Under the pieces are notes generated by a model. It saw only the letters and a list, made by a program, of their open reading frames with translations. It ran no database searches and was not told where the DNA came from. This document shows positions 3,001 to 20,352 of a stretch of DNA of 20,361 bases, one piece after another. The position numbers were made by a program, and so were the translations under genes. Source of the DNA: a virus; IMG/VR virus record IMGVR_UViG_3300020404_000666, positions 1 through 20,361 of that record. The stretch is one strand, 5' to 3'. Each line of letters begins with the position of its first letter. Position 1 is the first letter of the stretch.

Positions 3001-5423
3001 GCATAAACTCTCTTTGCTGATTTTAAGAAGTTGTCGCCAGCTACCTTTGTTATTTCAGTATCCAATGTGAAACTATCTCTAGTGTCGCCAAGAATAGTGT
3101 TGTGGCCCTCGAACCTTAAGGTATATGTTGAATCGCTTGAGCCGGTTGTTGATCTAAGACTTCCAGATTTGGCAGGTATCACAGATACCGAGAAGTTCCA
3201 ATCTTGATTGTTATAAACACCGAAGAAAACACTACTTGTTACTTCAGCAAAAGGACTCGGGTTAAGTGATGATGTTAGTTTGAAGAATGCATTTTTTGAC
3301 TTTTCGGAATCTCGGACGGCGTAGACCTGAAAGTTCGTGTTATCTACGGCCATGAAAGTGGTGTCGTCGGGGCTTCCAACACTTGCGGACACAACACCAA
3401 ACAGAGAGACATCTTTAAACGTTCTGTCCAAAGTATCCTCAACACTGTTAAAGTATGGGAATGTTATGTCAGCCTCAACGGTAGCACCATATGCAAACTC
3501 AAGACCTTCGGCGCCGGAGCCAGAAATGAAACCAATTGTGTTTGTGGTGTCGGCTGGGTTCTGTCTTTGATAAATTACACCACCCAAGTTCTCTTCTCTG
3601 TTGAGATTAGCGTATTTATTTAATTTTGTTGTTTGTTCGAGGTTGTTCCTAAGTTGATATCTCGCCTTATTTGAATATGTGTTGAGTGTTAAGATTTGAT
3701 CATCAATATAGAAGCAGCGAAGCACGGCCTTGATTGACTTTTCTGTACCCTTGGATTTGAAAATAGAAGATAGATTGTTGTAAAGATTTAGATAAATTAA
3801 GTTTTTGGTATCTTCTAGATTTGACTCAAAATTAAACTTTTCTGTTTTATTGCCAACTTTATTTATAATATCCGAATCAATGAAAATCTCTGGCGTGTAC
3901 AGGCCGAGAGATTGTGGAAGATTTCTAGCAAATGTAAGAGGCTTATGAGAAGAGCTTGTGTACACAGGTTGCTTAAAATCGGAGACCGATTGAATCTGTA
4001 GGTATAGTTTATCAAAATATGTTCCGATAATATGAGATACCATCTCAAGTTGGCTATCTCCGTTACCTTCACCTTCTGCCTCTTCAATTACCCAACTGGG
4101 GATATAGTTGATAAACTTGGTGGAGTTGTTGTGATCGTGAAATTTGCCCTTGTCTTCTAGCAGTGTTTGCAATGATATAACATCAGGGTGCGTGTCATAT
4201 ATGATTGGATCTTTAAATTCTTTTGTTGCAGCCCCGGCCTCCACAATCGCTGATTGCAGAGTTCTTGATGGCGTACCAACCCAAGTACCGTTAGTTAAGC
4301 GACCAGCGTAATCAAGAACTATTCTGTCTGTTGTGCTATCACCCGTTGTGCCTTCATTAAATTTATAATATACACCAAGCGTTGCATTAGAAACATCCGT
4401 ATTTGTGCCTCCGCGCACCTGCGTAAAGTAATTTGTTCCAATTTGGAATCCATTTCTTTCTGTTTTCCAGAATCTAAATTCATCCATTGAGGAGACGCCC
4501 AGTAGACCTACAGAACCAGATGCTATGTAGCCAAGCGTACCTTTCTGTGTAAACGAGCCACTAGGTGCTGGGCCAATAACCTTGGCCTCGTTAAGCTCAC
4601 CATTGACAAATAACTTTGATGAAAGGCCCGAACTTGAGCTTTTAAACGAAAGTGCATAGTGGGCAAACGAAGTCATTGAGCCCGTAGTTATTGTCACACC
4701 AACTTGCTTGTCTGACAAAACTGATGTACCACCCTTGTCTAGATTTATATGGAAAGGCGAGCCGACTGTACCAGATAAGAAAATAGTTAAGGCGTCTCCG
4801 CCAGAAGAGTTAGTAAGATGAAAGATACTTCGTTTTGTATCGGCGCTAATCGCAGATGTCTTTAGCCAAAATTCAACGGTCACGCCGTTAGAAAAATCGC
4901 ACTTTAAATTAGATTCTCTTGAACCGAGAGCGTAGTCTGACGGCTTATTGTCGTGTTGATATATATCTGTTTCATATATGTTTGCTTGACTTCTTTTTGA
5001 TGAATCTGGCTCTTTAAACAAAGAGTTTAAGTTTGTGTAACTTGTGGAGTTAGGGCCGCCTTTTAAACTAATGAATGATGAAGCGTCAAAATTAGCGTAA
5101 CCGTTTGTTCTTGGATATAGATTATCAAATATATATCTTTCATGCGGGAGAGATTGATTAAAGAATTCGTTTATCTCTCCGTCAGAACCATCATAAGGGA
5201 AGAAATTGTATATTCTTTCAAGTGAAGACTTATAATACAAAAACGCAGAGCCATACTTTGCAAAGTTTTCAGGCTCAGAGTAATCTATCTGTGGAACAAA
5301 AGTATTTTCTAACTCAAGCTTTTGGGTTAAGTTTTTAGTTGACTCAACATTATCAACCATTTCTTGGTTGGTAGTTTGAGGTAAATAATTTCTTGTTTTA
5401 TTAAAAAGGTCTTTAATGCTCAT
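1..5423 (-). CDS. Giant LamG-domain tail/baseplate structural protein, C-terminus beyond window
   Basis: I read an uninterrupted frame from an ATG at 5423 to the left edge: 1807 complete codons and no stop, so the C-terminus is missing. The start overlaps the end of the upstream gene by 11 bases and has only a weak purine-rich ribosome site. Visible parts: an N-terminal region (1-160); a LamG/concanavalin-like domain (about 165-325) with VTVEFWLKTS at its start and SMDEFRFWK near its end; a helical region (about 430-585) with a KSKGTEKSIKAVLRCF motif that resembles the RGT-containing motif of P2 tail protein I/gp7-type wedge proteins; a long region with no recognised domain; and a second LamG-like domain from about 1675 to the edge (WAISMWLKM). 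LamG domains usually bind glycans or act as beta-sandwich spacers. I infer a virion protein of the baseplate periphery or tail fibre. Carbohydrate binding is suggested by the fold only. Confidence 0.85.
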   Translation of the reverse strand, partial: MSIKDLFNKTRNYLPQTTNQEMVDNVESTKNLTQKLELENTFVPQIDYSEPENFAKYGSAFLYYKSSLERIYNFFPYDGSDGEINEFFNQSLPHERYIFDNLYPRTNGYANFDASSFISLKGGPNSTSYTNLNSLFKEPDSSKRSQANIYETDIYQHDNKPSDYALGSRESNLKCDFSNGVTVEFWLKTSAISADTKRSIFHLTNSSGGDALTIFLSGTVGSPFHINLDKGGTSVLSDKQVGVTITTGSMTSFAHYALSFKSSSSGLSSKLFVNGELNEAKVIGPAPSGSFTQKGTLGYIASGSVGLLGVSSMDEFRFWKTERNGFQIGTNYFTQVRGGTNTDVSNATLGVYYKFNEGTTGDSTTDRIVLDYAGRLTNGTWVGTPSRTLQSAIVEAGAATKEFKDPIIYDTHPDVISLQTLLEDKGKFHDHNNSTKFINYIPSWVIEEAEGEGNGDSQLEMVSHIIGTYFDKLYLQIQSVSDFKQPVYTSSSHKPLTFARNLPQSLGLYTPEIFIDSDIINKVGNKTEKFNFESNLEDTKNLIYLNLYNNLSSIFKSKGTEKSIKAVLRCFYIDDQILTLNTYSNKARYQLRNNLEQTTKLNKYANLNREENLGGVIYQRQNPADTTNTIGFISGSGAEGLEFAYGATVEADITFPYFNSVEDTLDRTFKDVSLFGVVSASVGSPDDTTFMAVDNTNFQVYAVRDSEKSKNAFFKLTSSLNPSPFAEVTSSVFFGVYNNQDWNFSVSVIPAKSGSLRSTTGSSDSTYTLRFEGHNTILGDTRDSFTLDTEITKVAGDNFLKSAKRVYAGAYRQNLSGALIDKSDVLISGVRYWLKNIDYGSKIQHALDFDNNGVSEGYKNISALDNNTRNLDILNKDTLALSWEFSNLTGSDSTGNFYVTDFSSGSALIRNNYGWVGNVAGYRHSGYGFGFATSSLGTIESKRVNVFKFVDPERVISSDMVSIIDDNQEFFGIPRDVVGYHHTLEKSMYSAVSDEMLKFFAGAADFNNLIGEPVNRYRMNYKALEKLRQAFFLRVQDVTEVEKFIDYYKWFDDSLGDIIKQLIPASAVISENVFDVVESHVLERNKYQSKFPTIEFKTPDPETTILGIREKTFDWEHSHHPISNSQKENSEYWQKRAKRVGSEVISSGVNTVDVQRDTIIETLDKQNTQKAPSLRQLDKQVYSGQTFVLRKLARPYKLTIDRRSNPPRSIHGGANFEVNKNFGFHRVALHPAGPINQSGSIFIPKNIMLGFTEDLVGLEDTTDPPKSPSKLVKRNIKIQSGRDYEHGVGYKNAKSDVVFPFNIVSSSVKTGYNKQVIDRVTASIEIVNLHNDVYGPNAEKPMQGPFTEYAVGGLQYRHVPINKGGDNYLNRPEGWKILLGRCAVTTGAIGMVGADYPYPEANDVGATPYPMTGAQKAFFYRDMVAKRPVNIRNIRHTTGSTILGNYNHNYDVVQAGSAFSTPRQFVEKQPTLPVNTFDARARYADTVRTVLDINRTDRNHTDFNGDYSADYLQTGSGESVIISRFSAPGGIETMTKGYQDFRSSQFSVYNTMNARNLTVRRPLQGVTSSIVSETSGTRVFDIHGRDFGLVNHSTRHAARFFRDSTLESNPGASYVERPSFHRIHRNNIVKARRIINTVPVLSGSTLSNLSGAMMNDTSRIARFLVGMDIDGNVSISDSRREQFMAEVTSSGQWAISMWLKMSQGRGQNAQTFIYGHGKNTAGGSVPFSVNQHSDDEFRIKIHTSDNANGTAPNTPNEFRITGLSASSDSAQYNHFVFAVSGSQGQLGSTLQVQAWKNGVSQTVIRPT

Positions 5424-6879
5424 AGTCTTCTACTCTAAACATGAATTTCTGATCCTGCTCAATCCAAGATTGGCGCTGGGAGTCATAAAATGCAAGTTTG
5501 ATGCCGTATTCATATCCGGGCTCAAGCAGCGACATATCAAGGTCGAAATAATTTCCTGACACATCGTAAGAGAGTAGTGTGTGTAAGTCTGAACCAGTAC
5601 CATGTGGTATAGCATTGAAGCCATCAAAAATCCTGTAAACTCTAAACGATGCGCTAGGAATTGTAGTATTTTCTATTTCCTTAGACGCTACTGTGTAAAT
5701 AGTTGGGGACCAGTTTTTGTTTCGCACGTAAACGTTGAAACGGGCCTCTTCTTCAGAGAAGTATTTGCTTCTTAGATTCTTAATGCTAGTAACATAGCGA
5801 GTGTTGCCAGTGGAAGCGCCAAGAGCCAAATGTGTCTCAGGCTTTATTGTTCCAGTGAAGTATTGTGTTCCGCTGTCGTTATGCCAAACATCAAAAAGAG
5901 TTCTCAAGGGCGTGGCTGCCGAAGTGATGGCCACAGAACAAGAATAGATTCCTGTCGATACGTGACCACCAGTAACATTGGTTTTGCCATCGTGGAGAAC
6001 AAGCTTGTTTCCTGTGGGTGACGTAGAACCAGAGTAAAGATTTACAAAGATATTACCAGTGCCTATGACGGGTATATTTGTGAGTGCTCCACGAACAAAG
6101 TTGTAAAGATAAATTGTATTAAGGTTCTCGGACGCAGGAGCTAAAGAACTACTATAATAGAAGTCTCCGCGATCATCTTGGTTAGAAGAGTTCCAACGCG
6201 CTTCAATTACTGGCTTCTTAAAGAAATACTGGGTGCCTCTTGCAAAGAATCGCTTAGTGTAATATGATTCTTCCGCACCACCTGAGTTGGTGTCACTCTT
6301 TGCTTCTTGAGAGGCAGTGAGTCTGAATCCAACTCCATAATTTTGTTTTGTTCCAGCAATCCATTGTTCAACGAGTTCAGATATATCAATCTCCAAGTCT
6401 TCCAATCCAGTTTTAAAAGTCTGATTATACTTGGGAGAAGTGTGGTAATCACCACCTTGGCTTTCCCAAGGTTGGCCCTTAGAAGCAGATATCCAGTTTG
6501 ATGCCCCTAGGTCTTTATAGTTTTCGAGGTCTAGGCCGTCTCCCTCGCTCCAAGATTTTGATATGGCTTGTGCCACTATGGTGAAATTTTTTGGGACAGT
6601 CTTGGACGTTTCAGCGTTGAATAAACGCACATAAAAACTTACACTACCAGACGCTGGGATAATCCCTGCCGTTCTATCAGACGAGATTGAATTGATATCG
6701 AAGCTTGTCAGTACTCTTGATAGCTCAGCCGATGAAGTTGTTTGTCTACCATATATAGAATAAACCTCGCTTACATCTGCTTGGCCCATGTTGGAGCCAG
6801 TGGCTCTAATTCTGAGATTCTCCTGAAAGGCATTTGAAATTGTGTTATCTGCTTCCGCAGAATATCTTTTGATAGCCAT
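5413..6879 (-). CDS. Baseplate-associated protein with DNRLRE-like domain
   Basis: A 488-residue protein starting at ATG 6879, in a one-base TAATG overlap with the stop of the J-like gene. An AAGGGG sequence lies 11 bases upstream of the start. Residues 1 to about 225 look like a DNRLRE (CBM96-like) beta-sandwich: the features are a SKSWSEGDG segment (108-115), a tryptophan-containing NWISAS (128-133), and an IDISELVEQWIAG segment (164-176) followed by YGVGFRL, the usual 'x-V-x-x-W-x-x-G ... G' end of that family. The remainder (about 250-488) seems to be beta-rich, Ser/Thr/Gly-rich Ig-like segments without a family I can name. DNRLRE domains are better known from secreted and surface proteins, where some bind polysaccharide. 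The position between J and the giant LamG protein suggests a baseplate or fibre-attachment component. The role is inference. Confidence 0.8.
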   Translation of the reverse strand: MAIKRYSAEADNTISNAFQENLRIRATGSNMGQADVSEVYSIYGRQTTSSAELSRVLTSFDINSISSDRTAGIIPASGSVSFYVRLFNAETSKTVPKNFTIVAQAISKSWSEGDGLDLENYKDLGASNWISASKGQPWESQGGDYHTSPKYNQTFKTGLEDLEIDISELVEQWIAGTKQNYGVGFRLTASQEAKSDTNSGGAEESYYTKRFFARGTQYFFKKPVIEARWNSSNQDDRGDFYYSSSLAPASENLNTIYLYNFVRGALTNIPVIGTGNIFVNLYSGSTSPTGNKLVLHDGKTNVTGGHVSTGIYSCSVAITSAATPLRTLFDVWHNDSGTQYFTGTIKPETHLALGASTGNTRYVTSIKNLRSKYFSEEEARFNVYVRNKNWSPTIYTVASKEIENTTIPSASFRVYRIFDGFNAIPHGTGSDLHTLLSYDVSGNYFDLDMSLLEPGYEYGIKLAFYDSQRQSWIEQDQKFMFRVEDYEH

Positions 6880-8675
6880 TATCTAACTTGCCCCTTAATA
6901 TCTGTGTCTGGATATTTTATTTCTACAACTGCGTTTTTCGGAATCGTAACTTTTGTTCCATCAGAAGACGTGTTTTTATTTATGTCTATTGAGTTGCCAG
7001 AATAGCTTGATCCAGTTCTATTAACTAACTTTACGGATACCACCTCGTGAACGCCTCTAACCATTGATAGTTCCTTATACATATCAGATATATTTATATC
7101 TTCTCCAATGTAAAAAGCAGACCCAAATTTCTCGCTCAATGCGGTCACGCACCTTTCATTTAAATCAAACTTGTTGACACCGTCTTTGGAGGAAACAACA
7201 AAGTTCACTCCTAAGTTAATGATAAAAGGATCTATAATGTCTACTGTGTCGTTGATCATTCTATGCTGGTTGATCCAGACTTTTAAATTTTTCTTTATGG
7301 TATCACTTGAAAGAATTAGCTTGCCGAACGAATCCTCTGAGACAACATACATATTTAGATTTCTTTTTTGTGAATCAGGGTCGCGCTGTACTGAACATCT
7401 CTTTATTGAGCCAAACTTAACAGGCATTCTATAAACTAAATTTTCGTAGTCTACCTGCGTTACTGCTCTGTTTTGTGTTGAGAACGAATCGAAGATTCTT
7501 CTCTTTAGCTCACCAGCAGTTGGGGCGGTAACGTCACCCGTGATTGGCGATTCATTAAAAACTTCTAAAGAATTAATAACAGCATTTGCCTTTGAGGTAA
7601 CCAAGTCTGGTCGATCTTTAAATTCAAAATTAGAATTTGAAACTTTGTTGAGGCCGCCCGCAGCTACATTAGAGTTTGTGGGGTTTGTGACTCTGTACAC
7701 AATTTCCAAAGTTGTGTTGGTGGGGACTGTGCCAAAGTTTTGATTTTTCGTTAACTTTGTAGGATCAAAAGTTGTATCAGTCACATAAGATTTGCCAAAT
7801 AAATCTAGGGCTACCTTTTGTGGATCAGCGACCACATCGGTTTCATTTGGGTTACCGGAACCAAACTGCAAGAATGTTCTTGTTCTTTCCAAAGAAGTAA
7901 TAAATTTTCTTGAAACTAGGAAGGGTTTCATTACGGAAGGGGCGTTTTCTTCTTTAAAATTGTTATTAGGTATCTCTCGGTATACAATATCTTGTGACAA
8001 GTTGTCAACTTCAAAATACTCGTTGCCGTCTGCATCTGTAACAGAGACTATTTCTGAAACATTTGAGGAATTTAATTCTATTCTTTTGAATCTTTCAAAG
8101 TCTCCACAAGTTATCAGTTCTCGCTTAAAAAAGCCAGAGACAACATTGCCATAAGCCTTGACTGCAAAAAATGTTGGAGCACCCGTAGTGCTATCAACAT
8201 TGGCCACAACAACTTGGTTTTGTACATCCGAGAAGTCTACATTTTGGGTAAGAACAAAATTTAACCCATTTTGTGACGTAAATCTGGAACCTCTCTTTAG
8301 AATAGGCAAATATTCTGTGTCGGGGCCGATACCGATTGTGCTCGCTGGCACTAGAATGTACATCGCTACAGATCCGAAAGTAGTCGGCCTTCCTTCAGTC
8401 TTATATCCCAGTATACGACCGTGGCGCAACACATTTGAATATTGAAACGAAGTGTCCAAAAACATTTCGTTAACATTGTAGTCAAGATAAAAAGATAGTT
8501 GATCTGCGACGTAAGCCACAGAATCCAACATTATAGAACCAAACGACGCCTCACTGAAATCTTGGAAAGAGTCAGGGTAAAATCTTTCAGCTATTTGCTC
8601 AAGGTCCCTTCTGATTCCTTGGAACTCTCGATTTGTGTAATTAATTGGTATTTTTTTCTTTTCGTCTTGAGGCAT
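6879..8675 (-). CDS. Baseplate wedge protein, gp6 / baseplate J family
   Basis: A 598-residue protein in the size range of T4 gp6 (660 residues). The N-terminal 110 residues carry the gp6-like pattern: a YTNREFQGIRRDL stretch, then a helical dimerisation-type segment ending in NVLRHGRILGYKTEGRPT, which corresponds to the conserved 'A..LGY.P.G...' segment. Residues about 400-598 match the baseplate J C-terminal region: NRAVTQVDYENLVY (402-415), a ferredoxin-like segment with a CSVQRDPDSQKRNLNMYVV stretch, and a second one after IIDPFIINLGVNFVV. In T4 and P2, this protein forms the core ring of the wedge around the hub and triggers sheath contraction. The start is ATG 8675, with AGGGTG about 9 bases upstream. 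It follows gp25 after a 44-base gap, the same order as P2 W-J. Confidence 0.9.
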   Translation of the reverse strand: MPQDEKKKIPINYTNREFQGIRRDLEQIAERFYPDSFQDFSEASFGSIMLDSVAYVADQLSFYLDYNVNEMFLDTSFQYSNVLRHGRILGYKTEGRPTTFGSVAMYILVPASTIGIGPDTEYLPILKRGSRFTSQNGLNFVLTQNVDFSDVQNQVVVANVDSTTGAPTFFAVKAYGNVVSGFFKRELITCGDFERFKRIELNSSNVSEIVSVTDADGNEYFEVDNLSQDIVYREIPNNNFKEENAPSVMKPFLVSRKFITSLERTRTFLQFGSGNPNETDVVADPQKVALDLFGKSYVTDTTFDPTKLTKNQNFGTVPTNTTLEIVYRVTNPTNSNVAAGGLNKVSNSNFEFKDRPDLVTSKANAVINSLEVFNESPITGDVTAPTAGELKRRIFDSFSTQNRAVTQVDYENLVYRMPVKFGSIKRCSVQRDPDSQKRNLNMYVVSEDSFGKLILSSDTIKKNLKVWINQHRMINDTVDIIDPFIINLGVNFVVSSKDGVNKFDLNERCVTALSEKFGSAFYIGEDINISDMYKELSMVRGVHEVVSVKLVNRTGSSYSGNSIDINKNTSSDGTKVTIPKNAVVEIKYPDTDIKGQVR

Positions 8676-8704: not shown

Positions 8705-8720
8705 GAGTATTTTATTACTC
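8705..8720 (-). other. Small inverted repeat at the gp25/J junction
   Basis: On the minus strand, GAGTA and TACTC flank a six-base loop (ATAAAA). The repeat begins at the last base of the gp25 stop codon. Two more pairs could form beyond a mismatch. This sits in the longest gap of the window (44 bases, 8676-8719). There is no U-run directly after it, so a terminator is unlikely. An mRNA processing or translation-modulating hairpin is possible, but a 5 bp stem in AT-rich DNA may be chance. Confidence 0.25.
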
Positions 8721-9088
8721 TACAGTAGCAAATCTAGTAATTCGTTGACGGCGATGTCTGGTATGGAATAACTCAACTTCATTCTAAGGATATTTGAGTC
8801 CTGTTCTTCACTAAAGAAGCTAACATCGTTGATGTTTATTATTGGCATATACAACTTAGCCTGCTCTCTTATCTTATTATCTATTTGTGAGAATGTATCA
8901 TCTGAAAAGTTCTGAAACAAAAACTGTTTTATTCCAACGCCAAAGTCTGGCTCCATTACTCTCTCGCCGGGATTGGTGAGAACAAGCATCTTGAGATTTT
9001 GTTTGACCAGACTGCGTAGGTTTTTGATCATACGAAACCCATCAGTACCGTCTTGAACAACCGGCAGCGCTATACTTAAAGATCCCAT
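8720..9088 (-). CDS. Baseplate wedge protein gp25 (GPW/gp25 family)
   Basis: A 122-residue protein, close to T4 gp25 (132 residues) and P2 gpW. It shows the family signature: a basic, helical N-terminal part (IKNLRSLVKQNLKMLVLT), then NPGERVMEPDFGVGIKQFLF at residues 39-58, which matches the conserved 'GER....FG.gl...lF' core. After that come a helix and paired strands, ending in a hydrophobic LLDLLL tail. In contractile tails, gp25 binds the gp6/J core and offers the first docking platform for the sheath. It is named a lysozyme in older annotation, but the family is structural. The start at ATG 9088 is fixed by a very strong ribosome site at 9100-9093. The J-like partner is the next gene. 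Confidence 0.93.
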   Translation of the reverse strand: MGSLSIALPVVQDGTDGFRMIKNLRSLVKQNLKMLVLTNPGERVMEPDFGVGIKQFLFQNFSDDTFSQIDNKIREQAKLYMPIININDVSFFSEEQDSNILRMKLSYSIPDIAVNELLDLLL

Positions 9089-9116: not shown

Positions 9117-12100
9117 CTAGTCTTTTTTATCACACAAAGCGCCGTCTGCATTAAATGGGTTGGTTCTAAGCATTCTTTTCTTCCACCAAGGCAGTAGTCT
9201 CTTCCCAGATGCTGGCCTAAAAGCAGCAGAAAGCTGAGAAACCACAACTTCCCCAACACTATCGGAGTCATCGTCGTTTGGATCGAAATCCCTTGAATTA
9301 TAAAAATTCTTGAATAGCTTCTTTATTCTAAATTTTGATTTCATAAATATATCTTGATCCCACTTATCGTAGTGAAGTAAGAATAAACCATTTCCAGCAA
9401 ATATACCCGGAGCGCGGTCTTTGGCACTTTGCCACCCATCAGCACCATTATTTGTAGTAATCTTGGTTACGGATACTGTATCTCCATCGGCGTCAACTCC
9501 AGTTGAGTTACTTACAACAATGTATCTACCGGGCTTGTCTTCAACGTTTTTAATTTTTTTGGATTTTTTATCTATAACGGTTTCGCCAATTGATGGAACA
9601 AAAGCCATGTCGTTATAAATGGCGATTACTGATAAAATTTTGTTGAGTGGGAACACATATTGTGCTACTGCATTAAAGTCTGGTTCATCTAACAAGTTGT
9701 TTACCAAACACAATAGCAGTTTAGAGTCAGCTTCAAGCGGCTGGAATTGTGTGACTGGTAAATCAAGGGCGTCTACCTCAGTTTCTACCAAAGTTTGTTT
9801 TCCATTTCCAGCGTCTGTAGACAGTCTAAGGCCGTAACGAACACCAAGCTCTCCGGTGACTCCTATTTCCGCACCGTTTTCATCATATACAAGCTCCATG
9901 GTGCCGGGGTAAACATCTGAAATGTTTGTATCTGTGGTACCAGCCGCTGTTATTATTGCTTGGGCTTCGCCGGGAGTATAATAAATATCGTTAATTCTAA
10001 CATACTTCTCCAAAACAAATGGCTTCTCAGAAGTTGGAACATTCGATGTACTGATGTCAGAAACATCGCCAATGGGGACCGTTATCTTGTTGGCAGACAC
10101 CTTTAGAACATCGTGAGATTCTTCAACGTGATATGGGCCAACCATGTACACTGAGTCTCCCGCCTCATCTATATGAATATGGTAATACCCAACATAATCA
10201 TCGCCCTGTTCCGTTATTAATGTGCCCCCAGCAGTGTAGAGATTACTAGCTGCCTCTGCTCCGGTGGCATCAATGTCCTGAACTTGTTGTTTAATTTCTT
10301 TATCTATATCGAGAGTAGAGCCAACACACAGTTTTTCAAGAACGTATTTTCTTAAATCTTCGATGACATTATCAGATGCAAGGCCGGTTTCTTGCATGTT
10401 CTTTAGATAGATGTCGCCCATAAATTGCATTTCTTCTTTCACGAGTTCTTGAAGAATTATCTTTGCATCTTCTTCTGTTTCTCTTACAAGTTCCAAATTT
10501 TTCTCATATCGATAATTTTTCAAAGTTTCAAATCTACCAGCATCACCCATTTTCTTTGCGTCTCTTAGGCCAACAATGGTACGATCATCATTTGATTGAT
10601 AAGTTTTTTTGATAATTCTTCTATATTTTGCAATTACCTCTTGGATTCTATTGAGTGCATCTACGACAGGCGCGGGCGGATCATCAAGCTGGTCATCAGC
10701 ATATCTTCTGGCATAGGTTTGCACTGACTGTTCCAAGAATGAATACCAGAATTCTTCATCTTTGAAAGGATTGAAAAACTCAAAGAATCCGCTCGGCTGA
10801 GCATTTTTGAAATCCTCTTCCATCTTCTCAATAATGTATTGTGGATATAGAGAACTGAACGTATTATAAAAGTCTGGCTTAAATTTAGAAAAAGTAGCAG
10901 AAGCCTTGAGTAAGTGAACACTAGCATATATTCTTATGGCCGCACTAATCAGACCTTCAATTCCCGCCTTGGCTGGACGTTCAAGAATTCTGTTATATGG
11001 CTCTTCTCTAATACAGTCAGGATCTGATCTCAGTCTATCATCTTCAGGTATTCTAGAATATGTGCTGTTAATTCTTTCCTGAATAGAACCAAAGTTGATA
11101 GCGTCTGACCTGTAGGGCTTACACGGACTCATTTCTGGGAACATTACATCGACAAAACCAAGCCAACCGGAATTCTTTTCTGGCTTTATGTAAATCGGAG
11201 GATTGAAGTAGTTGCCGCCATGCTTAGCAGGGTCTAGATAGAACACTCTTGTCTTTTCAGGTGTGCCGGCTTCATCATTTAAATACTGATCCCTGCTAAC
11301 CCCAAGAACAGCATCTTCATTTGAAAGGTCGTTAATGTCAGCGTATCTCGAATATTCAACAAATACGCCAGAGTCGTTAACAACACCATAGGATATATCA
11401 TCATATGACAAGTCATCGAACGCTGCTCCATACTTAAACGCATCTAAGTTTGTATACACTTCCTCTGCAAACTTCTCAAATATTGCTGTCATTATTTGAT
11501 CATGCTTGTCCTTTACCAGTTTGGCGTTTGGTGGTGTACTGCCTGCTTTTTCAATAATGTCTTGCAACATGTAAACCTGCGGAATAAACTTTTTGGCATT
11601 GCTTGCTGTTTCAGAGAATCTTGGATAAGCCAGTAAGTCAACGCCATCAAGGCCACCATCAGCAGAAACAAACTCGTAAGCACGATATTTTAATATATCA
11701 CTCTTGGAGTTCTTTTTCTTATCTTCCGCCTCGTTTTCGTAAGCGCCGTCAGCGGCATCAACTTTGGCGCCCGTGTTGACAACGTTGGTAATCACCACTC
11801 TTGCATTATCGGTTAGTGGGTTTACAAAGTTGCCGTCACTCTTTTCAATATCTGAGAGGTACATTTTGAGGTTGAAGCCGTATGAGAACCCACCTTCATC
11901 GGCGGTACCCTTTGCGTTGTCTCGGAACTTAAGTGATATATCTGCGGTTTTCTTTCGGGCACGTCTGTTAAACTTTATGCTTTCATCATCAAAGTCAACA
12001 CTCATATCTACATTATATCCAAAATCTGGCAGAGTTAACAGATTGACACTACCGAAGAAACCATCAAAACCCAAATTTTCAAAAGTTCTTTTAAACACTT

Positions 12101-15100
12101 TGTTATCTACTGGGGCATTTGAAGATTTAAAGTTTGCCTCTTTGAATTGCCTTTCCATCTCGCCAGTCTTCGTATCAGTGGTTATTAACCAATCAGCAAC
12201 GTAGTTGGGGAAAGCACCCTGTTGTCTCTTTACTGCCGCAAAGTTGGTGTCATCATTAGCGTCTGGTTCTTCTTCCGTTTGAACATAGAAGTCAACATAC
12301 TTTCTTTTAAACAAGAAGCCACCGCTGTTGCCGGACTTACGAAGGTGTGCTGTATATGGGTTACCTGATGTGTCTGAGAGCACCATGTTCATGAAGCCCC
12401 AATTTCTTTCTCCGGGGCCATTGCCTATCATGTCGTATGTATATGCAATCTTCAAGGCTTCCATGTTGCCATCAAGAGCGTTTGTGGTTGCCTTGATTAT
12501 CTCGTCAGGCTCAAAAGGCACAAGACCGTTGTTACAGCCGGGATCTGATACTATAGGGGGCAAATTGTTTTCTAGGTATGACGATACACCATCGTTCAGA
12601 ATTGTTGATATATCCTCTAGATCATCTTTGAACGTGTTACGTGTGCTTTCACAAAGATTGGCAATTTGGTCTGGCGATGCTCTTCCTTCTAGAAGACCAG
12701 CACGCAAAGAACAGAAGTCTTCAATTTGTTGCGGCGTTGCACAAAGAGTTGGGTTTGCGGGGAGTCCGTCATCTTCGTCAAGGCCACGAACAAAGTCTTT
12801 GATAACTTGTTTGGCGTCAGCGGGCATAAGATTGCCGATATTGCTAAAGAATGAAGATATGTTTTCCCTGTTGTTGAACGCCTCACCGAACTGTGGGTAT
12901 TCAAATTCTATGAGGCTCTGAACAACAGATAGGAACGTCTCGGAAGGATCGCCCACTATTGCGTTTGATAATTCTAGTTGTGTGGTTGAGGCAGATAGAT
13001 CCTCTGCAAAAGACATAACAGCAGCACGGTCAGCGAAGGCAGCACCTCCGGCTCCCATTTTCTGAAACATGTCAACTATCGTATCATCAATCTTTTCATC
13101 ATCTGCTTCAGGGCCACAGATAGTTTCTCTAATTACTTCCTTAAAGGTTGATCTTCCAGTAGCAATTGCAGGAAGCGCAGCCGCCAAATCACCAACAGCC
13201 TCAAGTGCCTTACAAATTGCATTGCCTATAAGTTCACAAACCTTAACAATTAATTTAATAATGATTCTTACGACAAGCTTCTGGACCTCAATCCTTAGAA
13301 TCATAAACAGCAGTCTAAAAATATCTTTGATTTTTGGAAGATATGCGAATGGATTTTCAAGCCTTGGTAAACCTATATGTGCAGTATTTCTACAGAAAGG
13401 TAATTCAATATCTTTTAAGAAATTTGTCATGCTCGGGTCAAAAATAGGAGGCATAGGGCAATCAATAAGTGCAATAACCTTTGCGATAATCTCAGCACCG
13501 GGGAACCTGTTAAGAAGATCCAGTAGCTCTAGTAAATTATCACTATAAACTTCTAGTAGCGCGGCGATGTACGCCTGCATAATTGAGTTTGGGTTTAGCT
13601 CTGAGCCAACATTCTGTAGCTGAGCCTTTACAGTTGCATCACCAACATCTGACTTTCTAGTTTTTGCTGGTGGGATGCCGGATGGTGATATACTTTCATA
13701 CGGACCCTCGCGCATAAGCTTTTCGTTTTGCTCGTTAATAAGGTCTGGGTTTTCCCAAGGCTTCTTAAATTTGGGCAAGAAACTAATACTGGTATCATTT
13801 TCGATATCTATTCTTGCATTCTCGCCCTTGGCTGCCTCATCGGATATTCGCTGAGCCGATGACCCCGCTGGAAATATATTGCCTTCGTTTAGCTTTTTTT
13901 GTACAAGTGCATCAAGCTCTTGCTGCTTATCGGGAGGCAGGCCAACAAACAGATCACCAAAGTTTTCCAACGACATTGAGGTCAGTGCAGATCTAAGCAT
14001 ACTTGATAGGGCTTCTTCAAGAGTGAGCCCCTTGAACAAACACTGTATTGCATCGAGCATTAGATCAAAAAGTCCACAAATTCTAATTTTGTCAAAACCA
14101 TCTGCGTAAAGGATATCAAGCTGTCTCGTGGTGTCCCCACTGGCAGAGAAGCCAGACAGTATCAAAGCGCAAAAATTAGAAAATACTTGGTCTGTCTCAT
14201 CCAATTCTTTAAACGCCTGTTCAATAGCGAATGCGCCAATATTCTTGGAGGCTTCATCGTCTTTGCCATTAGGCACAAACTTATCTGCGTCTATTAGTGC
14301 TACATCTCTACCTTGCGCGGCCACGGCGAGGGCACCAGAAGGAATCTGACCAAATTTTATTTTTTGTTCTATCATCTCCTTGTAGTCTCTGTTGCAGAGC
14401 ATTTTATGAAATTGTGAAGCAATCGCGTCGCCGAGACCAAAAGCATCATCTAAGATATCTTGCCCAAGTTGTTTTCCTTCAGCAGCAAGGTTGTCCGCAA
14501 TACAAGTAAGCGCACTGGGGGAATCTGGATCTGTATTAGTATACCCTGCATTGATTACGGCATCTACCTGTGGGTAGGTGTATTGTTTGACAAACTCAAG
14601 CCATGGCTGTGGGGTTCTCGCTGTAAGGTCTCTTTCCATTTGCCTCATTTGGGCAAAGTATGCAACAGCGGTTCTGTCTCTCCAGCTTTCTTTTTTGTTT
14701 AGACTTTTCAGCCTACTACTATTAAATACTTTTGGCTTTTCACCGCATGTTTGTGTATAGACTTTTAATTTTTTTAGTCTGTATTCCGGCGTAAAAGTGA
14801 ATTGTAGTTTCAAAACTTCGTCTTCAAAAAGGCCACCAAATCCTCCGACACCGGGAATATTGAAACCCTTATCATTTAGAAACTCTTCTAGGTCTGGTAC
14901 TAGTTTAGATGTGATTGATCTTTTCTTGCCGCGAAGTATGCCGAGGTCGCCGTAGTTATCTAAATTGAATAATCCGCCAGTATCAATAAATCTAAGACTT
15001 CCTCCGTCAGTGAACCTGTAAACTTTTTCATATCGAGAATATAGGTTAAGACCCTTTCTAATCCGAATCATATTTGTCTGCATTTCTGTAGCAATATATT

Positions 15101-15620
15101 CAACTGTTATGTCTTCTTCTGCCTCTTCCTCTTCTTCTTCATCGTCTTCTATCTCTTCAAGTAGAGACAGTATTTCAAAAGGGAAAGAATACAGAAGCTG
15201 TAGTCTTGAGCTTGGCGCCACTTCAAGAAAATAATCTCGATACTCTATATTATCAACCATTATTTGTTTGTTTGATGTGTTATCTGCCTTATCATAAAAG
15301 TCCAAAAAGGATGATATTGCTTCGTCAGCGTACTTTGCGTAAAGCTCCTGCAACGCCGCCTCTGCCTCTTCTTCAGTGGAGTTGGAGTCGGCACCAGTTG
15401 TTGTTTCTGGCGTAGTCATCGGTATCTGATAAAAGCACAACTTCTCATTTAAGAACGGCCGCAGAGACTCCGAAGTTTTCCAGTTAGGAACAAGGGCTTT
15501 CGGGTTGGGAACGCAATCCTTGCAAACCTTTTGTTCTGGTGGTCCCAGATCAATTTCACAGACATCTATAAGATTGTCTCTATCATAGTCTTGATATTTT
15601 AGGAATTTTGATTCTGCCAT
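9117..15620 (-). CDS. Giant 2167-residue protein of unknown function, probable baseplate/tail structural protein
   Basis: I do not recognise a named family over most of this protein. The start is ATG 15620, with a weak AAAGAG site, 17 bases after the preceding stop. Visible parts: a Cys/Pro-containing N-terminus (C21, C33, C36); a strongly acidic stretch (about 155-170, mostly Glu/Asp); helical regions to about 700; a long hydrophobic/basic helical block at about 762-820 (for example LVVRIIIKLIVKV) ending in an Ala-rich stretch; a Cys-containing region (C960, C970, C990, C1029); mixed beta regions; a charged helical, probably coiled-coil block (about 1650-1770); and a small His-rich module (about 1797-1840). 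The C-terminus is basic (WWKKRM). Its position between the spike proteins and gp25 argues for a virion protein at the tail tip or hub. A tape-measure role is possible but less likely, as there is no long, regular helical pattern. Confidence 0.85.
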   Translation of the reverse strand: MAESKFLKYQDYDRDNLIDVCEIDLGPPEQKVCKDCVPNPKALVPNWKTSESLRPFLNEKLCFYQIPMTTPETTTGADSNSTEEEAEAALQELYAKYADEAISSFLDFYDKADNTSNKQIMVDNIEYRDYFLEVAPSSRLQLLYSFPFEILSLLEEIEDDEEEEEEAEEDITVEYIATEMQTNMIRIRKGLNLYSRYEKVYRFTDGGSLRFIDTGGLFNLDNYGDLGILRGKKRSITSKLVPDLEEFLNDKGFNIPGVGGFGGLFEDEVLKLQFTFTPEYRLKKLKVYTQTCGEKPKVFNSSRLKSLNKKESWRDRTAVAYFAQMRQMERDLTARTPQPWLEFVKQYTYPQVDAVINAGYTNTDPDSPSALTCIADNLAAEGKQLGQDILDDAFGLGDAIASQFHKMLCNRDYKEMIEQKIKFGQIPSGALAVAAQGRDVALIDADKFVPNGKDDEASKNIGAFAIEQAFKELDETDQVFSNFCALILSGFSASGDTTRQLDILYADGFDKIRICGLFDLMLDAIQCLFKGLTLEEALSSMLRSALTSMSLENFGDLFVGLPPDKQQELDALVQKKLNEGNIFPAGSSAQRISDEAAKGENARIDIENDTSISFLPKFKKPWENPDLINEQNEKLMREGPYESISPSGIPPAKTRKSDVGDATVKAQLQNVGSELNPNSIMQAYIAALLEVYSDNLLELLDLLNRFPGAEIIAKVIALIDCPMPPIFDPSMTNFLKDIELPFCRNTAHIGLPRLENPFAYLPKIKDIFRLLFMILRIEVQKLVVRIIIKLIVKVCELIGNAICKALEAVGDLAAALPAIATGRSTFKEVIRETICGPEADDEKIDDTIVDMFQKMGAGGAAFADRAAVMSFAEDLSASTTQLELSNAIVGDPSETFLSVVQSLIEFEYPQFGEAFNNRENISSFFSNIGNLMPADAKQVIKDFVRGLDEDDGLPANPTLCATPQQIEDFCSLRAGLLEGRASPDQIANLCESTRNTFKDDLEDISTILNDGVSSYLENNLPPIVSDPGCNNGLVPFEPDEIIKATTNALDGNMEALKIAYTYDMIGNGPGERNWGFMNMVLSDTSGNPYTAHLRKSGNSGGFLFKRKYVDFYVQTEEEPDANDDTNFAAVKRQQGAFPNYVADWLITTDTKTGEMERQFKEANFKSSNAPVDNKVFKRTFENLGFDGFFGSVNLLTLPDFGYNVDMSVDFDDESIKFNRRARKKTADISLKFRDNAKGTADEGGFSYGFNLKMYLSDIEKSDGNFVNPLTDNARVVITNVVNTGAKVDAADGAYENEAEDKKKNSKSDILKYRAYEFVSADGGLDGVDLLAYPRFSETASNAKKFIPQVYMLQDIIEKAGSTPPNAKLVKDKHDQIMTAIFEKFAEEVYTNLDAFKYGAAFDDLSYDDISYGVVNDSGVFVEYSRYADINDLSNEDAVLGVSRDQYLNDEAGTPEKTRVFYLDPAKHGGNYFNPPIYIKPEKNSGWLGFVDVMFPEMSPCKPYRSDAINFGSIQERINSTYSRIPEDDRLRSDPDCIREEPYNRILERPAKAGIEGLISAAIRIYASVHLLKASATFSKFKPDFYNTFSSLYPQYIIEKMEEDFKNAQPSGFFEFFNPFKDEEFWYSFLEQSVQTYARRYADDQLDDPPAPVVDALNRIQEVIAKYRRIIKKTYQSNDDRTIVGLRDAKKMGDAGRFETLKNYRYEKNLELVRETEEDAKIILQELVKEEMQFMGDIYLKNMQETGLASDNVIEDLRKYVLEKLCVGSTLDIDKEIKQQVQDIDATGAEAASNLYTAGGTLITEQGDDYVGYYHIHIDEAGDSVYMVGPYHVEESHDVLKVSANKITVPIGDVSDISTSNVPTSEKPFVLEKYVRINDIYYTPGEAQAIITAAGTTDTNISDVYPGTMELVYDENGAEIGVTGELGVRYGLRLSTDAGNGKQTLVETEVDALDLPVTQFQPLEADSKLLLCLVNNLLDEPDFNAVAQYVFPLNKILSVIAIYNDMAFVPSIGETVIDKKSKKIKNVEDKPGRYIVVSNSTGVDADGDTVSVTKITTNNGADGWQSAKDRAPGIFAGNGLFLLHYDKWDQDIFMKSKFRIKKLFKNFYNSRDFDPNDDDSDSVGEVVVSQLSAAFRPASGKRLLPWWKKRMLRTNPFNADGALCDKKD

Positions 15621-15637
15621 TATAAACTCTTTAATAT

Positions 15638-16633
15638 TTAGGTTGTCTTGACACTTCTACTGCAAATATATTTGTAACTAAACGGGTATAGGTAGTTGAA
15701 CTCAAAATTAAAAGTCTTGTTTACTCTCGCATGATACATCGGGCTAAGAACCCTGCTTGGCATAAGAATTGAATTTACTGTACCAATCGCACCTCCCGCT
15801 GCACCATGAGGCGCAAAAATGCCACTGGAGGCAAATGCTGCTGCTGTAACATTGTTTATTGCACTCTGAACAAGCGCAAAATTAATTATTGCCCCGAACA
15901 CGTCATCTAAAACATCACTTAGTTCTTTAAAGGCATCCCTTGTATTATGGCCCATAGACACTGGCTGTAACGTATCTATTATCTCTCGTGGTTTTAAAAA
16001 TCCACCAAAGACTTTACGTGGCTCTGTGTTATTTCCGGCTATCAAATCTATACCGGGAGCAGGTTGAGATATTTTTCCACCAAGAGAGTTAGTTTCACCC
16101 TTGAGGCCAAAGCCCCTCCAGTTGTTGCCTTTACCGGTGACAATCTTAATACCTTCTCTACCAAAAATACGAACGCCATCAGCTTTGATACCAATTGCAC
16201 TGCGTGCTTTCGAGTTCCCCACTGAGCCCTCTACTATGCCAAAGTTGGTATCAACATCGGTTTGTTGGCTTATATAAATACGAGCAGCATCGGCGGCAAA
16301 GTTTGAATCAACATGTGTTCCGTATTTAACACCTTTGCCTCCCCTTGCAGAAGACAGACGCCCCACAACCAAATCAATGGTTGCTGCGCGGTCACTACCC
16401 CTCGCACCATATCCAGAGGCTTCAGAATTTGGCCTGTCGGTTCCTAAAACTACATATGCCCCATTCTTTGAAATAACTTTTTCATTTTGTGCCTTCTTGT
16501 AATTAAGAAACTTATCATCGATCCAGTGATCCATGTGCATAATGCCACTGTCAGAAGGAGTGGTATTAACAGGCTTTTTGTTTTTTATTCTTTTTTGTGT
16601 TTCAGAGCCTTCTCGTGATAATTTGCGTGCCAT
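15638..16633 (-). CDS. Beta-helix-like spike/tail-tip structural protein
   Basis: A 331-residue protein starting at ATG 16633, 3 bases after the stop of the peptidase gene. An AGGA site lies 8 bases upstream, inside the end of that gene. After a basic N-terminus, residues about 55-200 hold short strand-turn units such as AARIYISQQ, SAIGIKADGVRIFGREGIKIVTGKG (residues 145-169) and PGIDLIAGNN. The 'IKADGVRI.G.EGIKI' pattern is what gp5, gpV and VgrG beta-helix shafts look like (IKAD-type repeats). Residues about 235-290 form a helical, Ala/Gly-rich segment, and the C-terminus is aromatic (FNFEFNYLYPFSYKY). I infer a beta-helical shaft or tip that works with the adjacent OB-fold peptidase protein. 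No enzyme motif is visible. It could also be a hub-proximal baseplate protein. Confidence 0.75.
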   Translation of the reverse strand: MARKLSREGSETQKRIKNKKPVNTTPSDSGIMHMDHWIDDKFLNYKKAQNEKVISKNGAYVVLGTDRPNSEASGYGARGSDRAATIDLVVGRLSSARGGKGVKYGTHVDSNFAADAARIYISQQTDVDTNFGIVEGSVGNSKARSAIGIKADGVRIFGREGIKIVTGKGNNWRGFGLKGETNSLGGKISQPAPGIDLIAGNNTEPRKVFGGFLKPREIIDTLQPVSMGHNTRDAFKELSDVLDDVFGAIINFALVQSAINNVTAAAFASSGIFAPHGAAGGAIGTVNSILMPSRVLSPMYHARVNKTFNFEFNYLYPFSYKYICSRSVKTT

Positions 16634-16636
16634 ATT

Positions 16637-17767
16637 CTATGTCCTAGTTGTGTCTGTTGGGTCAGCTTCTCCATCTTTCGCTCCCTTTGCGATGACGGCA
16701 TTCTTTTTTGGTTCGCTATAGATGCTTGACTTTTTAGTTGATTCAAAGTGCCAAGGCTCAGGGTTACTACCGCCCTCAACAGCCCATGATGGATTATGAA
16801 AATTGTAAGTTGGGGCATTAGCTTTAAGCCATTTGTAGACAGTGCTTTCAAAGCCCTGCTTCCCGCCGGATATACCATATTCAGAGTCTATGTGATTAAA
16901 ATCAAAGGCGAGGCCCCATCCATGGTTAGACGTTCCGGGGCGTGCTGCAAGTTTAGGTTTTTTTCTTTTGAGGCTTACTTGAACCTCGTAGGTTCTGTAA
17001 TGGTCTGTTAAAATTATTTTTTTGCCAAAGCGGGCTATAAAAGCATCCACAAGTCTATCAAAATCATCCACAACATCGACAAGAAATCTGCCAGTATGCT
17101 TTGATTTTTTTAGTACAGACGCTGGTAACTGGCCATTAGATAAGTCTTGCTCCCCTGCCACACCACGATAAGTTCTAACTTGCGGTTCGCTCAAACTTCC
17201 AAGAGAGAAAGCACCGCCGGCCGCGTCCATGGCTTCTTTTATTGAATCACAATCTGCTGAACCTGAAGTTGGCGTATCGGGGTTTGTAACCACGCTGACA
17301 TGGCGACCATACTGAATATTGTAACTGTAGGCGTTCTTTGTTAGTTCAACCTCAACAGTAGAACCAATTCTTGGGAAAGAATCGCCAGCTTCGCCATCAG
17401 AATTGGAAACAAACAAAGTGTGCATTGAAGTAATCTCTAATGCTGATAGTGCATCAGAGGCGTACTCTGTGCTACACGGATTTGGCAAGAAACTGTGTGG
17501 TGAGTTTTCTCCAACTATTCTGGCACGATATGTAAATTTAGAGACTTTGTCTGGCTGTATTCCTCCTTCGACCTTAGTATCTCCCAAAAAATATTTTATG
17601 TCCTCTGGGGAAACAGGTATTGGAACTGTCAAGACAATTGCTTTAAACTTAGTCTTGCCACCATATGAATCATATTCAAAGCCTTTTCGTATGGAGTTTG
17701 AAAATAGCTCAGTCGCAGCCAATGCATCAGAAAAGGTAGAAAAATCTATAATGTCTTTCAATGACAT
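16637..17767 (-). CDS. Tail spike/hub protein: OB-fold-like N-terminus fused to M15 (VanY-type) peptidase
   Basis: A 376-residue protein in two parts. Residues about 1-160 are beta-rich, with YRARIVGENSPHSFLPNP and FPRIGSTVEVEL, like the gp5/gpV N-terminal OB-fold region. Residues about 220-342 are a VanY/M15 D-Ala-D-Ala carboxypeptidase domain: YRTYEVQ at 257-263, then PGTSNHGWGLAFDF (277-290) giving zinc ligands H282 and D289, and EPWHFE (337-342) giving catalytic E337 and ligand H340. All key residues are present. M15 enzymes cut peptidoglycan peptide links, so this is probably a tail-borne enzyme that opens the cell wall at entry; an exolysin role is less likely given the fusion and baseplate setting. 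A low-complexity charged tail follows. Start ATG 17767 forms a TAATG junction with the upstream gene, and GGGAG lies 7 bases before it. Confidence 0.9.
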   Translation of the reverse strand: MSLKDIIDFSTFSDALAATELFSNSIRKGFEYDSYGGKTKFKAIVLTVPIPVSPEDIKYFLGDTKVEGGIQPDKVSKFTYRARIVGENSPHSFLPNPCSTEYASDALSALEITSMHTLFVSNSDGEAGDSFPRIGSTVEVELTKNAYSYNIQYGRHVSVVTNPDTPTSGSADCDSIKEAMDAAGGAFSLGSLSEPQVRTYRGVAGEQDLSNGQLPASVLKKSKHTGRFLVDVVDDFDRLVDAFIARFGKKIILTDHYRTYEVQVSLKRKKPKLAARPGTSNHGWGLAFDFNHIDSEYGISGGKQGFESTVYKWLKANAPTYNFHNPSWAVEGGSNPEPWHFESTKKSSIYSEPKKNAVIAKGAKDGEADPTDTTRT

Positions 17768-19298: not shown

Positions 19299-19514
19299 CT
19301 AGTCTGCCATGTTTTTTAAATCTTGCTCTGTAATCGGCTCATCGTTTGAGAGACGAACAGTTGGGGGATTCGTAACGATAAGTCCATCATCTGTTTGTTG
19401 TAGTTCAAAGCCTTTTAGTATTGGCACAATATCTAATTGGTTTAGTAGTGACTCTTGAAGAGCCATCATAACGGCACCAAGTGCTTGGTTTGATAGTTTT
19501 AAATTATTGTTCAT
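19299..19514 (-). CDS. Small conserved phage protein of unknown function (71 residues)
   Basis: A 71-residue protein with a helical N-terminus (LSNQALGAVMMALQESLLNQ), then DIVPILKGFELQQTDDGLIVTNPP and an acidic C-terminal helix. I recall similar small proteins in T4-like marine phages but know no function. It starts at ATG 19514, overlapping the end of the dehydrogenase gene by 11 bases, and has a good ribosome site (GGAG, 6 bases upstream). It has no transmembrane segment, cysteine or known motif. Confidence 0.75.
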   Translation of the reverse strand: MNNNLKLSNQALGAVMMALQESLLNQLDIVPILKGFELQQTDDGLIVTNPPTVRLSNDEPITEQDLKNMAD

Positions 19515-20352
19515 TGCTTTCTCCTTTTGAAACTGCTCGACCGGGCATACTCTCCCAGTCTTTATTAATTCTAACTTCTAGGTTTTTAGACCAAACTGAC
19601 TTTAACACAATTGGGTCTATTTTGTTTAGCTCTGCAAAGTGAATAAAAGAATTTAAATCTTTTGGGAAACAAGTTCCACCAAAGCCGCAGTTTCCATCAT
19701 GACCCGGTACATTTAAATGAGTCTTTCCAATCCTCTCATCTAGTAGTGCCAACTCTTTTACATCATTGTATTCTACCTCAATAGAATCACATATTTGCTT
19801 AACTTCATTTGCAAACGAGATCTTACAAGCCAAAAATGTATTTATATAATATTTTACAACTTCGGCCGTTCTGTGATCAGTTTGTCTATATGTCTTGTCA
19901 GGGTATATGATTTTAAATAAATCAACACAAGCCTGAGTATCAGGCTGGTTGCCGCCGAATATTACACGACTACAGGTTTTAAAATCTTCGATTGAATTTC
20001 TTTCGGTCAGAAACTCTGGACTAAACACTAGCTTGAGTTCTGGATGTAATCTAAGTATTCTTTCACATGTGCCGGGCGGTATCGTAGACTTTATCACTAC
20101 TATGTTGTTATCGTACCAGTGTGCAACCTGTGCCATAGCTCCAAAAATTATTGATAAATCACAACTTCCGTCAGGTCTCATTGGTGTTGGCAAACAAACA
20201 AAAATTATATCTGTGGAATGACACAACTCTCTTACATCGTTACAATCTGTTTTAGACTTATCTTTGTCGTAACAGGTAACTGTAAAATCATCTTTCAAAT
20301 TTTCGTAGACAGCGTTGCCCACAAAGCCTCTACCTATAATACCAATATTCAT
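19504..20352 (-). CDS. UDP-glucose/GDP-mannose dehydrogenase family, short form
   Basis: A 282-residue NAD-dependent nucleotide-sugar dehydrogenase. The N-terminal Rossmann fold has GIIGRGFVGNAV (G7, G9, G12). Then come FVCLPTPMRPDGSCDLS (51-67), the KSTIPPGT loop (88-95), SPEFLTERNSIEDF (111-124), VKYYINTFLACKISFANEV (166-184, with the family Lys and Asn at K167 and N171) and the catalytic GFGGTCFPKD (223-232, with C228). The family oxidises UDP-glucose to UDP-glucuronate, or GDP-mannose similarly. The family is normally about 400-450 residues. The C-terminal sugar-nucleotide-binding domain is missing here, ending about 50 residues after the catalytic Cys. Start ATG 20352 has GGAG five bases upstream. 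It heads the visible block; whether more genes precede it is outside the window. Confidence 0.9.
   Translation of the reverse strand: MNIGIIGRGFVGNAVYENLKDDFTVTCYDKDKSKTDCNDVRELCHSTDIIFVCLPTPMRPDGSCDLSIIFGAMAQVAHWYDNNIVVIKSTIPPGTCERILRLHPELKLVFSPEFLTERNSIEDFKTCSRVIFGGNQPDTQACVDLFKIIYPDKTYRQTDHRTAEVVKYYINTFLACKISFANEVKQICDSIEVEYNDVKELALLDERIGKTHLNVPGHDGNCGFGGTCFPKDLNSFIHFAELNKIDPIVLKSVWSKNLEVRINKDWESMPGRAVSKGESNEQ
19521..19524 (-). promoter_or_regulatory. Ribosome site for the 71-residue gene
   Basis: Minus-strand GGAG in an AAAAGGAGAAAG context, 6 bases before ATG 19514. It lies inside the 3' part of the dehydrogenase gene. It supports this small gene as real despite its size. Confidence 0.6.

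Follow-up and report, generated by a model that had tools for sequence, protein, structure and literature searches.

What does an unrecognised protein of 2167 residues do in the middle of a phage baseplate gene cluster? Its gene occupies positions 9117-15620, on the minus strand, of the IMG/VR virus record IMGVR_UViG_3300020404_000666, whose 20,361 bases form the window analysed here; we use BIG as a working name for the protein. An earlier note on this DNA had described it as lying between a spike gene and gp25, and had proposed a large hub or tip scaffold, or a new kind of baseplate component. We report that BIG is a previously unannotated giant baseplate-module family, and we favour (at a probability of about 0.6) the reading that it is a structural scaffold of the inner baseplate, tying the spike/hub to the gp25-gp6 wedge in contractile phages of the Far-T4 type.

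The open reading frame is exact, with an ATG start and no internal stops. Three scans of IMG/VR yielded more than 300 relatives spread over well over 100 contigs, with 305 and 329 matching stretches confirmed in single scans. Complete members are 2087-2384 residues long (median 2169, n=74) and none is split; 98 sequences were left after removal of near-duplicates, and conservation was read from alignments of 86-92 homologues with a mean identity of ~42%. The ratio of nonsynonymous to synonymous substitution rates (dN/dS) was ~0.06-0.14 among clean close pairs, higher values in a few close pairs (0.35-0.69) being caused by misaligned loop indels. Because full-length homologues occur on more than 100 independent contigs and dN/dS is low, a chance reading frame can be excluded, and BIG is a real, intact and common gene. 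The viruses that carry it are uncultured. The sole partial copy in the genome collection, a C-terminal fragment, sits on a 4.6-kb contig binned with a Flavobacteriales metagenome assembly, which may be a weak hint of the host or may reflect contamination.

The position of the gene is fixed. The spike gene lies directly upstream of BIG in 96/96 loci with that flank present and gp25 directly downstream in 131/131, counts that include some repeat fetches of one contig; the place between these two genes is, on these counts, obligatory. Gaps to both neighbours are mostly 3-50 nt, and in the window they measure 17 nt to the spike-like gene and 28 nt to gp25. The name of the 'spike' neighbour calls for some caution, as the 331-residue protein (15638-16633, minus strand) has no family match in Pfam or PHROGs and owes its label to repetitive sequence and position. 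Evolutionary distances in BIG correlate best with those of the spike (r 0.84) and hub (0.82), followed by gp6 (0.73), gp25 (0.67) and the sigma factor (0.49).

Searches of Pfam, PHROGs, NCBIfam, PDB sequences and the INPHARED phages returned no family match and only chance-level profile hits, in keeping with the earlier description of the protein as unrecognised, and neither a tape measure nor a known hub matched it. Two of the hits, Psb29 (E 0.011) and LotA (PDB profile, E 0.016), were rejected as unrelated. Membership of the T4 gp53 adaptors was likewise rejected (no LysM in Pfam; hhalign probability to T4 gp53 <=0.3%), as was membership of the T4 gp7/P2 gpI family, BIG being upstream of gp25 rather than after gp6 (hhalign probability to T4 gp7 0.1%).

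The phages themselves could be placed through their other genes. A 195-kb BIG-bearing contig, G001, encodes a T4-type portal (PF07230, E 3.8e-76) whose best isolate matches are Mel-JY01 and immuto (39%), then RM378 (32%); it also holds a T4-type tube, sheath and baseplate chaperone. The window gp6 is likewise closest to Mel-JY01 and immuto, so that the closest isolates are Microcystis phage Mel-JY01, Flavobacterium phage immuto and Rhodothermus phage RM378, the last of which was described, as of 2020, as the only isolate of the Far-T4 type (PMC7198788). Since the portal and gp6 are nearest to Far-T4-type isolates, we assign the BIG phages, by sequence similarity, to a Far-T4-type clade. The comparison with P2 and T4 gene order made earlier was a loose one, since this phage belongs to the Far-T4 type and the slot between spike and gp25 varies in other lineages.

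This variation was seen in an outgroup of 80 loci (L161-L240) fetched with gp6. Their order, with some variation, is sigma factor, small gene, hub, variable slot protein, ~150-residue gene, gp25 and gp6. The slot protein ranges from fewer than 100 to more than 1200 residues and falls into many unrelated clusters, among them oligonucleotide/oligosaccharide-binding (OB)/beta-helix proteins, hydrolase-like proteins and ~1000-residue coiled-coil proteins; the ~150-residue protein that follows is conserved and ends in RDYSALMKAINKKKG. BIG profiles gave zero matches to the slot proteins of the 80 loci, and the ~150-residue family was not found beside BIG. On this comparison, the BIG clade has one fixed giant protein in the place where other lineages have a small gene plus a variable gene. 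Descent of BIG from immuto gene 155, a 1266-residue immuto protein or a 1452-residue G001 protein was also considered and received no support from hhalign. That a slot of this kind can hold a hydrolase, as with the 'chitinase' of Mel-JY01, raises the idea that BIG is itself an enzyme, acting on peptidoglycan, polysaccharide or another substrate. We regard this as very improbable, as no catalytic family was detected in Pfam, NCBIfam or PHROGs, the PDB profile hits are as weak as that to LotA, and the peptidase of the operon is the VanY domain of the hub.

The scaffold reading follows from the gene position, from distances that track the spike and hub, and from the absence of a variable end. BIG would be translated together with the spike and gp25 and, if it enters the virion and contacts both as we propose, would form a large link between the central spike/hub complex and the gp25-gp6 wedge ring. 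It would occupy the place held in sister lineages by the ~150-residue protein and the variable slot protein. Its N half would consist of small alpha/beta and helical domains in a row and its C half of a single large compact unit, and its cysteines may form disulfides or bind metal and so keep the assembly in its loaded state. Support is strong for the genes and their conservation, moderate for this role and weak for the mechanism. The earlier proposal of a hub or tip scaffold, or new baseplate component, is partly upheld, in that BIG is a conserved and dedicated member of the baseplate cluster, with hub, tip and wedge as candidate places.

Several points weigh against the scaffold reading. Gene order is evidence of functional linkage, not of contact, and shared ancestry inflates the correlations between trees, the rank correlations being just 0.3-0.5. 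BIG resembles no T4 baseplate protein in sequence or, as far as could be detected, in fold, and tblastn with three members and the family consensus detected a copy in no isolate phage. Moreover, the middle third of BIG is poorly modelled, and because 21, the number of conserved cysteines, is odd, pairing within the chain would be incomplete.

The distribution of conservation bears on whether BIG might instead lie at the periphery, as an arm, fibre anchor or receptor-binding part used in adsorption. Peripheral wedge proteins do occur in T4-like clusters (T4 genes 9-12), and BIG is large and multi-domain with acidic and His-rich parts. Yet conservation in >=90% of rows extends to about 10% of its columns, spread evenly along the chain and including both termini, with the last 17 residues among the most conserved; a variable receptor-binding end is absent, and BIG adjoins the spike and gp25, away from the downstream region of large variable proteins. 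A peripheral location is thus unlikely in our estimation, and membership of the receptor-binding proteins or tail fibres was rejected on the same grounds, the C-terminus being among the most conserved parts and no hypervariable distal end being present.

Within BIG, whose features are given here in window coordinates on the minus strand, the N half (residues 1-1145) was predicted moderately well (predicted local distance difference test score, pLDDT, 72; predicted template modelling score, pTM, 0.69). It begins with an EF-hand/dockerin-like calcium loop (residues 11-22; 15555-15590) of consensus D-K-N-G-D-G-L-I-D-V-C-D/E, in which D11, D15 and D19 are kept in 83/86, 71/86 and 81/86 homologues. 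The strict pattern occurs in 43/86 N-termini vs 0 hits among 91,190 other residues; the loop sits in a low-confidence region of the model. An alpha/beta domain at residues 45-159 (15144-15488; pLDDT ~90) weakly resembles Lpp20 (5ok8, Z 6.1, 99 residues, 3.5 A), within the usual background. A stretch at residues 155-174 (15099-15158), acidic yet variable in relatives, has D/E at 15/20 positions, and is followed by a second alpha/beta domain (residues 171-355; 14556-15110; block pLDDT mostly 70-95) and a mostly helical middle of lower confidence (residues 360-1030; 12531-14543).

The compact C half (residues 1030-2167; 9120-12533) was predicted with higher confidence (pLDDT 88, pTM 0.90). It contains paired long helices (residues 1700-1714 and 1716-1744) and, in its late beta-rich part, a His cluster, YxGYYHxH..H....H (residues 1809-1838; 10107-10196), in which H1814, H1831 and H1836 are kept in 81/92, 70/92 and 65/92 homologues; the motif is absent from other G001 proteins. 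The acidic, coiled-coil (here the paired helices of the model) and His-rich (1814-1836) parts reported earlier were all recovered. A search of the PDB with both halves gave no match at E <= 0.001, the best VIA Z scores being 6.1 (residues 45-159) and 4.7 (C half), although a non-match of a modelled unit of 1100 residues does not prove a new fold. A gp27-like trimeric hub with tube-like barrels was not among the Foldseek or VIA hits, in which single domains of large models can be missed. The C half did share its predicted fold with two unnamed viral proteins in BFVD, A0A516M7H3 (model A0A516M7H3_2, Foldseek E 2.6e-31, template modelling score 0.55) and A0A1B1IUZ9 (E 3.6e-7, 0.27), which differ from BIG in sequence (15% and 9% identity, respectively) and are unmatched in the isolate collection. 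Because of these matches, the BIG family probably extends past its clade.

The hydrophobic part reported earlier is a 35-residue helix at residues 766-800 (13221-13325), with a grand average of hydropathy of 1.33, and carries nine charged residues, including interspersed K/R; the idea that it is amphipathic was dropped, as its hydrophobic moment does not exceed that of shuffles. Together with the helical middle and the adjacent peptidase-bearing hub, this long helix could fit a second, tape-measure-like protein that is lodged in the hub, ejected with the DNA and inserted into the host envelope. We give this little credence. Besides the nine charges, there is the C half, whose large compact body with beta structure is unlike a tape measure, and a better tape measure candidate of 883 residues lies beside the tube and chaperone genes (G001 171362-174013; L153:362-3013, minus strand). 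The latter is itself without a PHROG or Pfam match, and its distance from BIG, with tube and sheath, of ~115 kb in G001 led us to reject tape measure membership for BIG. G001 also encodes a PF12322 protein, of a family of non-structural catalysts that T4 uses for its baseplate. By analogy BIG might be an assembly chaperone or scaffold that is not retained in the virion, but this is even less plausible, since such catalysts are usually small and BIG is very large and shares its operon with structural genes.

The cysteine pattern is a new observation of this analysis. In BIG 21/24 cysteines are kept in >=90% of rows, vs ~10% of all columns, and the next most conserved residue type is tryptophan (7/12). 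The N half holds 17 of the conserved cysteines, and the helical middle 12 of the 21. In neighbouring proteins from the same loci the corresponding fractions are 0/3 for gp6, 0/1 for the 488-residue protein downstream of it and 0/1 for the spike. The hub-like protein keeps 2/2, C98 (in FLPDPC) and C173, with only ~2% of its columns kept. Judged by this pattern, the conserved cysteines of BIG must be under strong constraint, putatively as disulfides or metal sites. The first four (C21, C33-x-x-C36 and C62; 15435-15560), which are 95-99% conserved and overlap or follow the EF-hand-like loop, are a possible zinc or disulfide site. It is conceivable, if doubtful, that BIG represents a new architecture in which several small T4-type adaptors linking spike/hub with the gp25 wedge have given way to one giant protein of new folds, and in which the 21 conserved cysteines of BIG, together with the two of the hub, make up a lock, based on redox chemistry or metal, that has to open before the tail can contract.

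Known contractile systems offer partial parallels for the proposed scaffold. Binding of gp25 in T4 requires that gp53 has bound first, and the hub is encircled by gp6, gp25 and gp53 (PMC3004832); A-1(L) has a LysM adaptor (gp16) that closes the space left between its hub and its wedge (PMC10966104). Both would share with BIG the place of a hub-to-wedge link tied to gp25, whereas BIG is 11 times larger, has no LysM match and shows no profile similarity to them. The ~150-residue gene of Mel-JY01, immuto and other Far-T4 phages resembles BIG in lying directly upstream of gp25, but is small, mostly low-complexity in appearance and without detected homology to BIG. For the size of BIG there is precedent among very large baseplate-module proteins: the gp7-like virion protein of cyanophage S-RIM2, a marine T4-like phage, has ~6,400 residues and is encoded by a 19-kb gene (55142-74278; L241 from 14370 onwards) directly after gp6. 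It differs from BIG in lying downstream of gp6 and in lacking profile similarity, its positional counterpart in the window being another protein, of 1807+ residues; T4 gp5, 6, 7, 8, 10 and 53 and the S-RIM2 neighbours showed no similarity to BIG either. For the putative redox lock the parallel is phage Milano, whose tail and baseplate are locked by disulfides (PMC10811340). Cysteines of baseplate proteins are common to both cases, but the proteins are unrelated, and the Milano bonds were seen by cryo-electron microscopy whereas those of BIG are putative, suggested by conservation.

Far-T4 phages have been reported in nearly all aquatic viromes examined (PMC4360716), and we came across no account of their tail tips. 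BIG is conserved, larger than any T4 baseplate subunit, of no recognised fold and located within the injection module. This points to a central adaptor region of contractile tails that varies more than the picture drawn from T4, P2 and the type VI secretion system would imply. Its cysteine pattern provides a simple test for chemical locking of the tail as in Milano, and the gene can serve as a marker for a large uncultured phage group.

The main genes of the window are all on the minus strand. In order they encode a UDP-glucose dehydrogenase-like protein (19504-20352), a zinc-ribbon protein, a small protein, a probable late sigma factor (phrog_234, at E 0.03 only), a 101-residue protein, the hub-like protein, the spike-like protein, BIG, gp25, gp6, the 488-residue protein and a very large protein of which only the beginning is included. 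The hub-like protein (16637-17767; 376 residues), described as OB/VanY, has a VanY/M15 peptidase domain (PF02557, E 9.6e-12), and its C-terminal enzyme part varies in length among relatives. The gp25-like wedge protein or sheath initiator (8720-9088) matches PF04965 (E 2e-13) and phrog_261 (E 1e-19), and the gp6/J-like wedge gene (6879-8675) matches phrog_6 and phrog_219, with ~29% identity to Mel-JY01 and immuto. The 488-residue protein (5413-6879) has a weak DNRLRE-domain match. The very large protein in the gp7 position (3-5423), of at least 1807 residues, runs off the window; it exceeds 2000 residues in relatives, reaches 2395 in G001 (L146:1-7185, minus strand) and has weak S-layer-like matches only.

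A scan of the window with Rfam gave zero matches. The T4 late promoter core TATAAATA occurs five times in the window, vs 1.04 expected, at 3860, 7091, 9102, 16273 and 19839; three sites are on the coding strand, and none is directly before BIG. At 60-76 kb of G001 (L147 3191-19216) a run of sugar-nucleotide/glycosyltransferase-like genes, called from N-terminal sequence only, adjoins the baseplate cluster. Finally, five unrelated G001 proteins share an N-terminal peptide resembling MKxLxENWRxFLNE (L144 8560-11286; L148 16110-17682; G001 95470-95946), which may direct them to the capsid, as the signal of the T4 internal proteins does.

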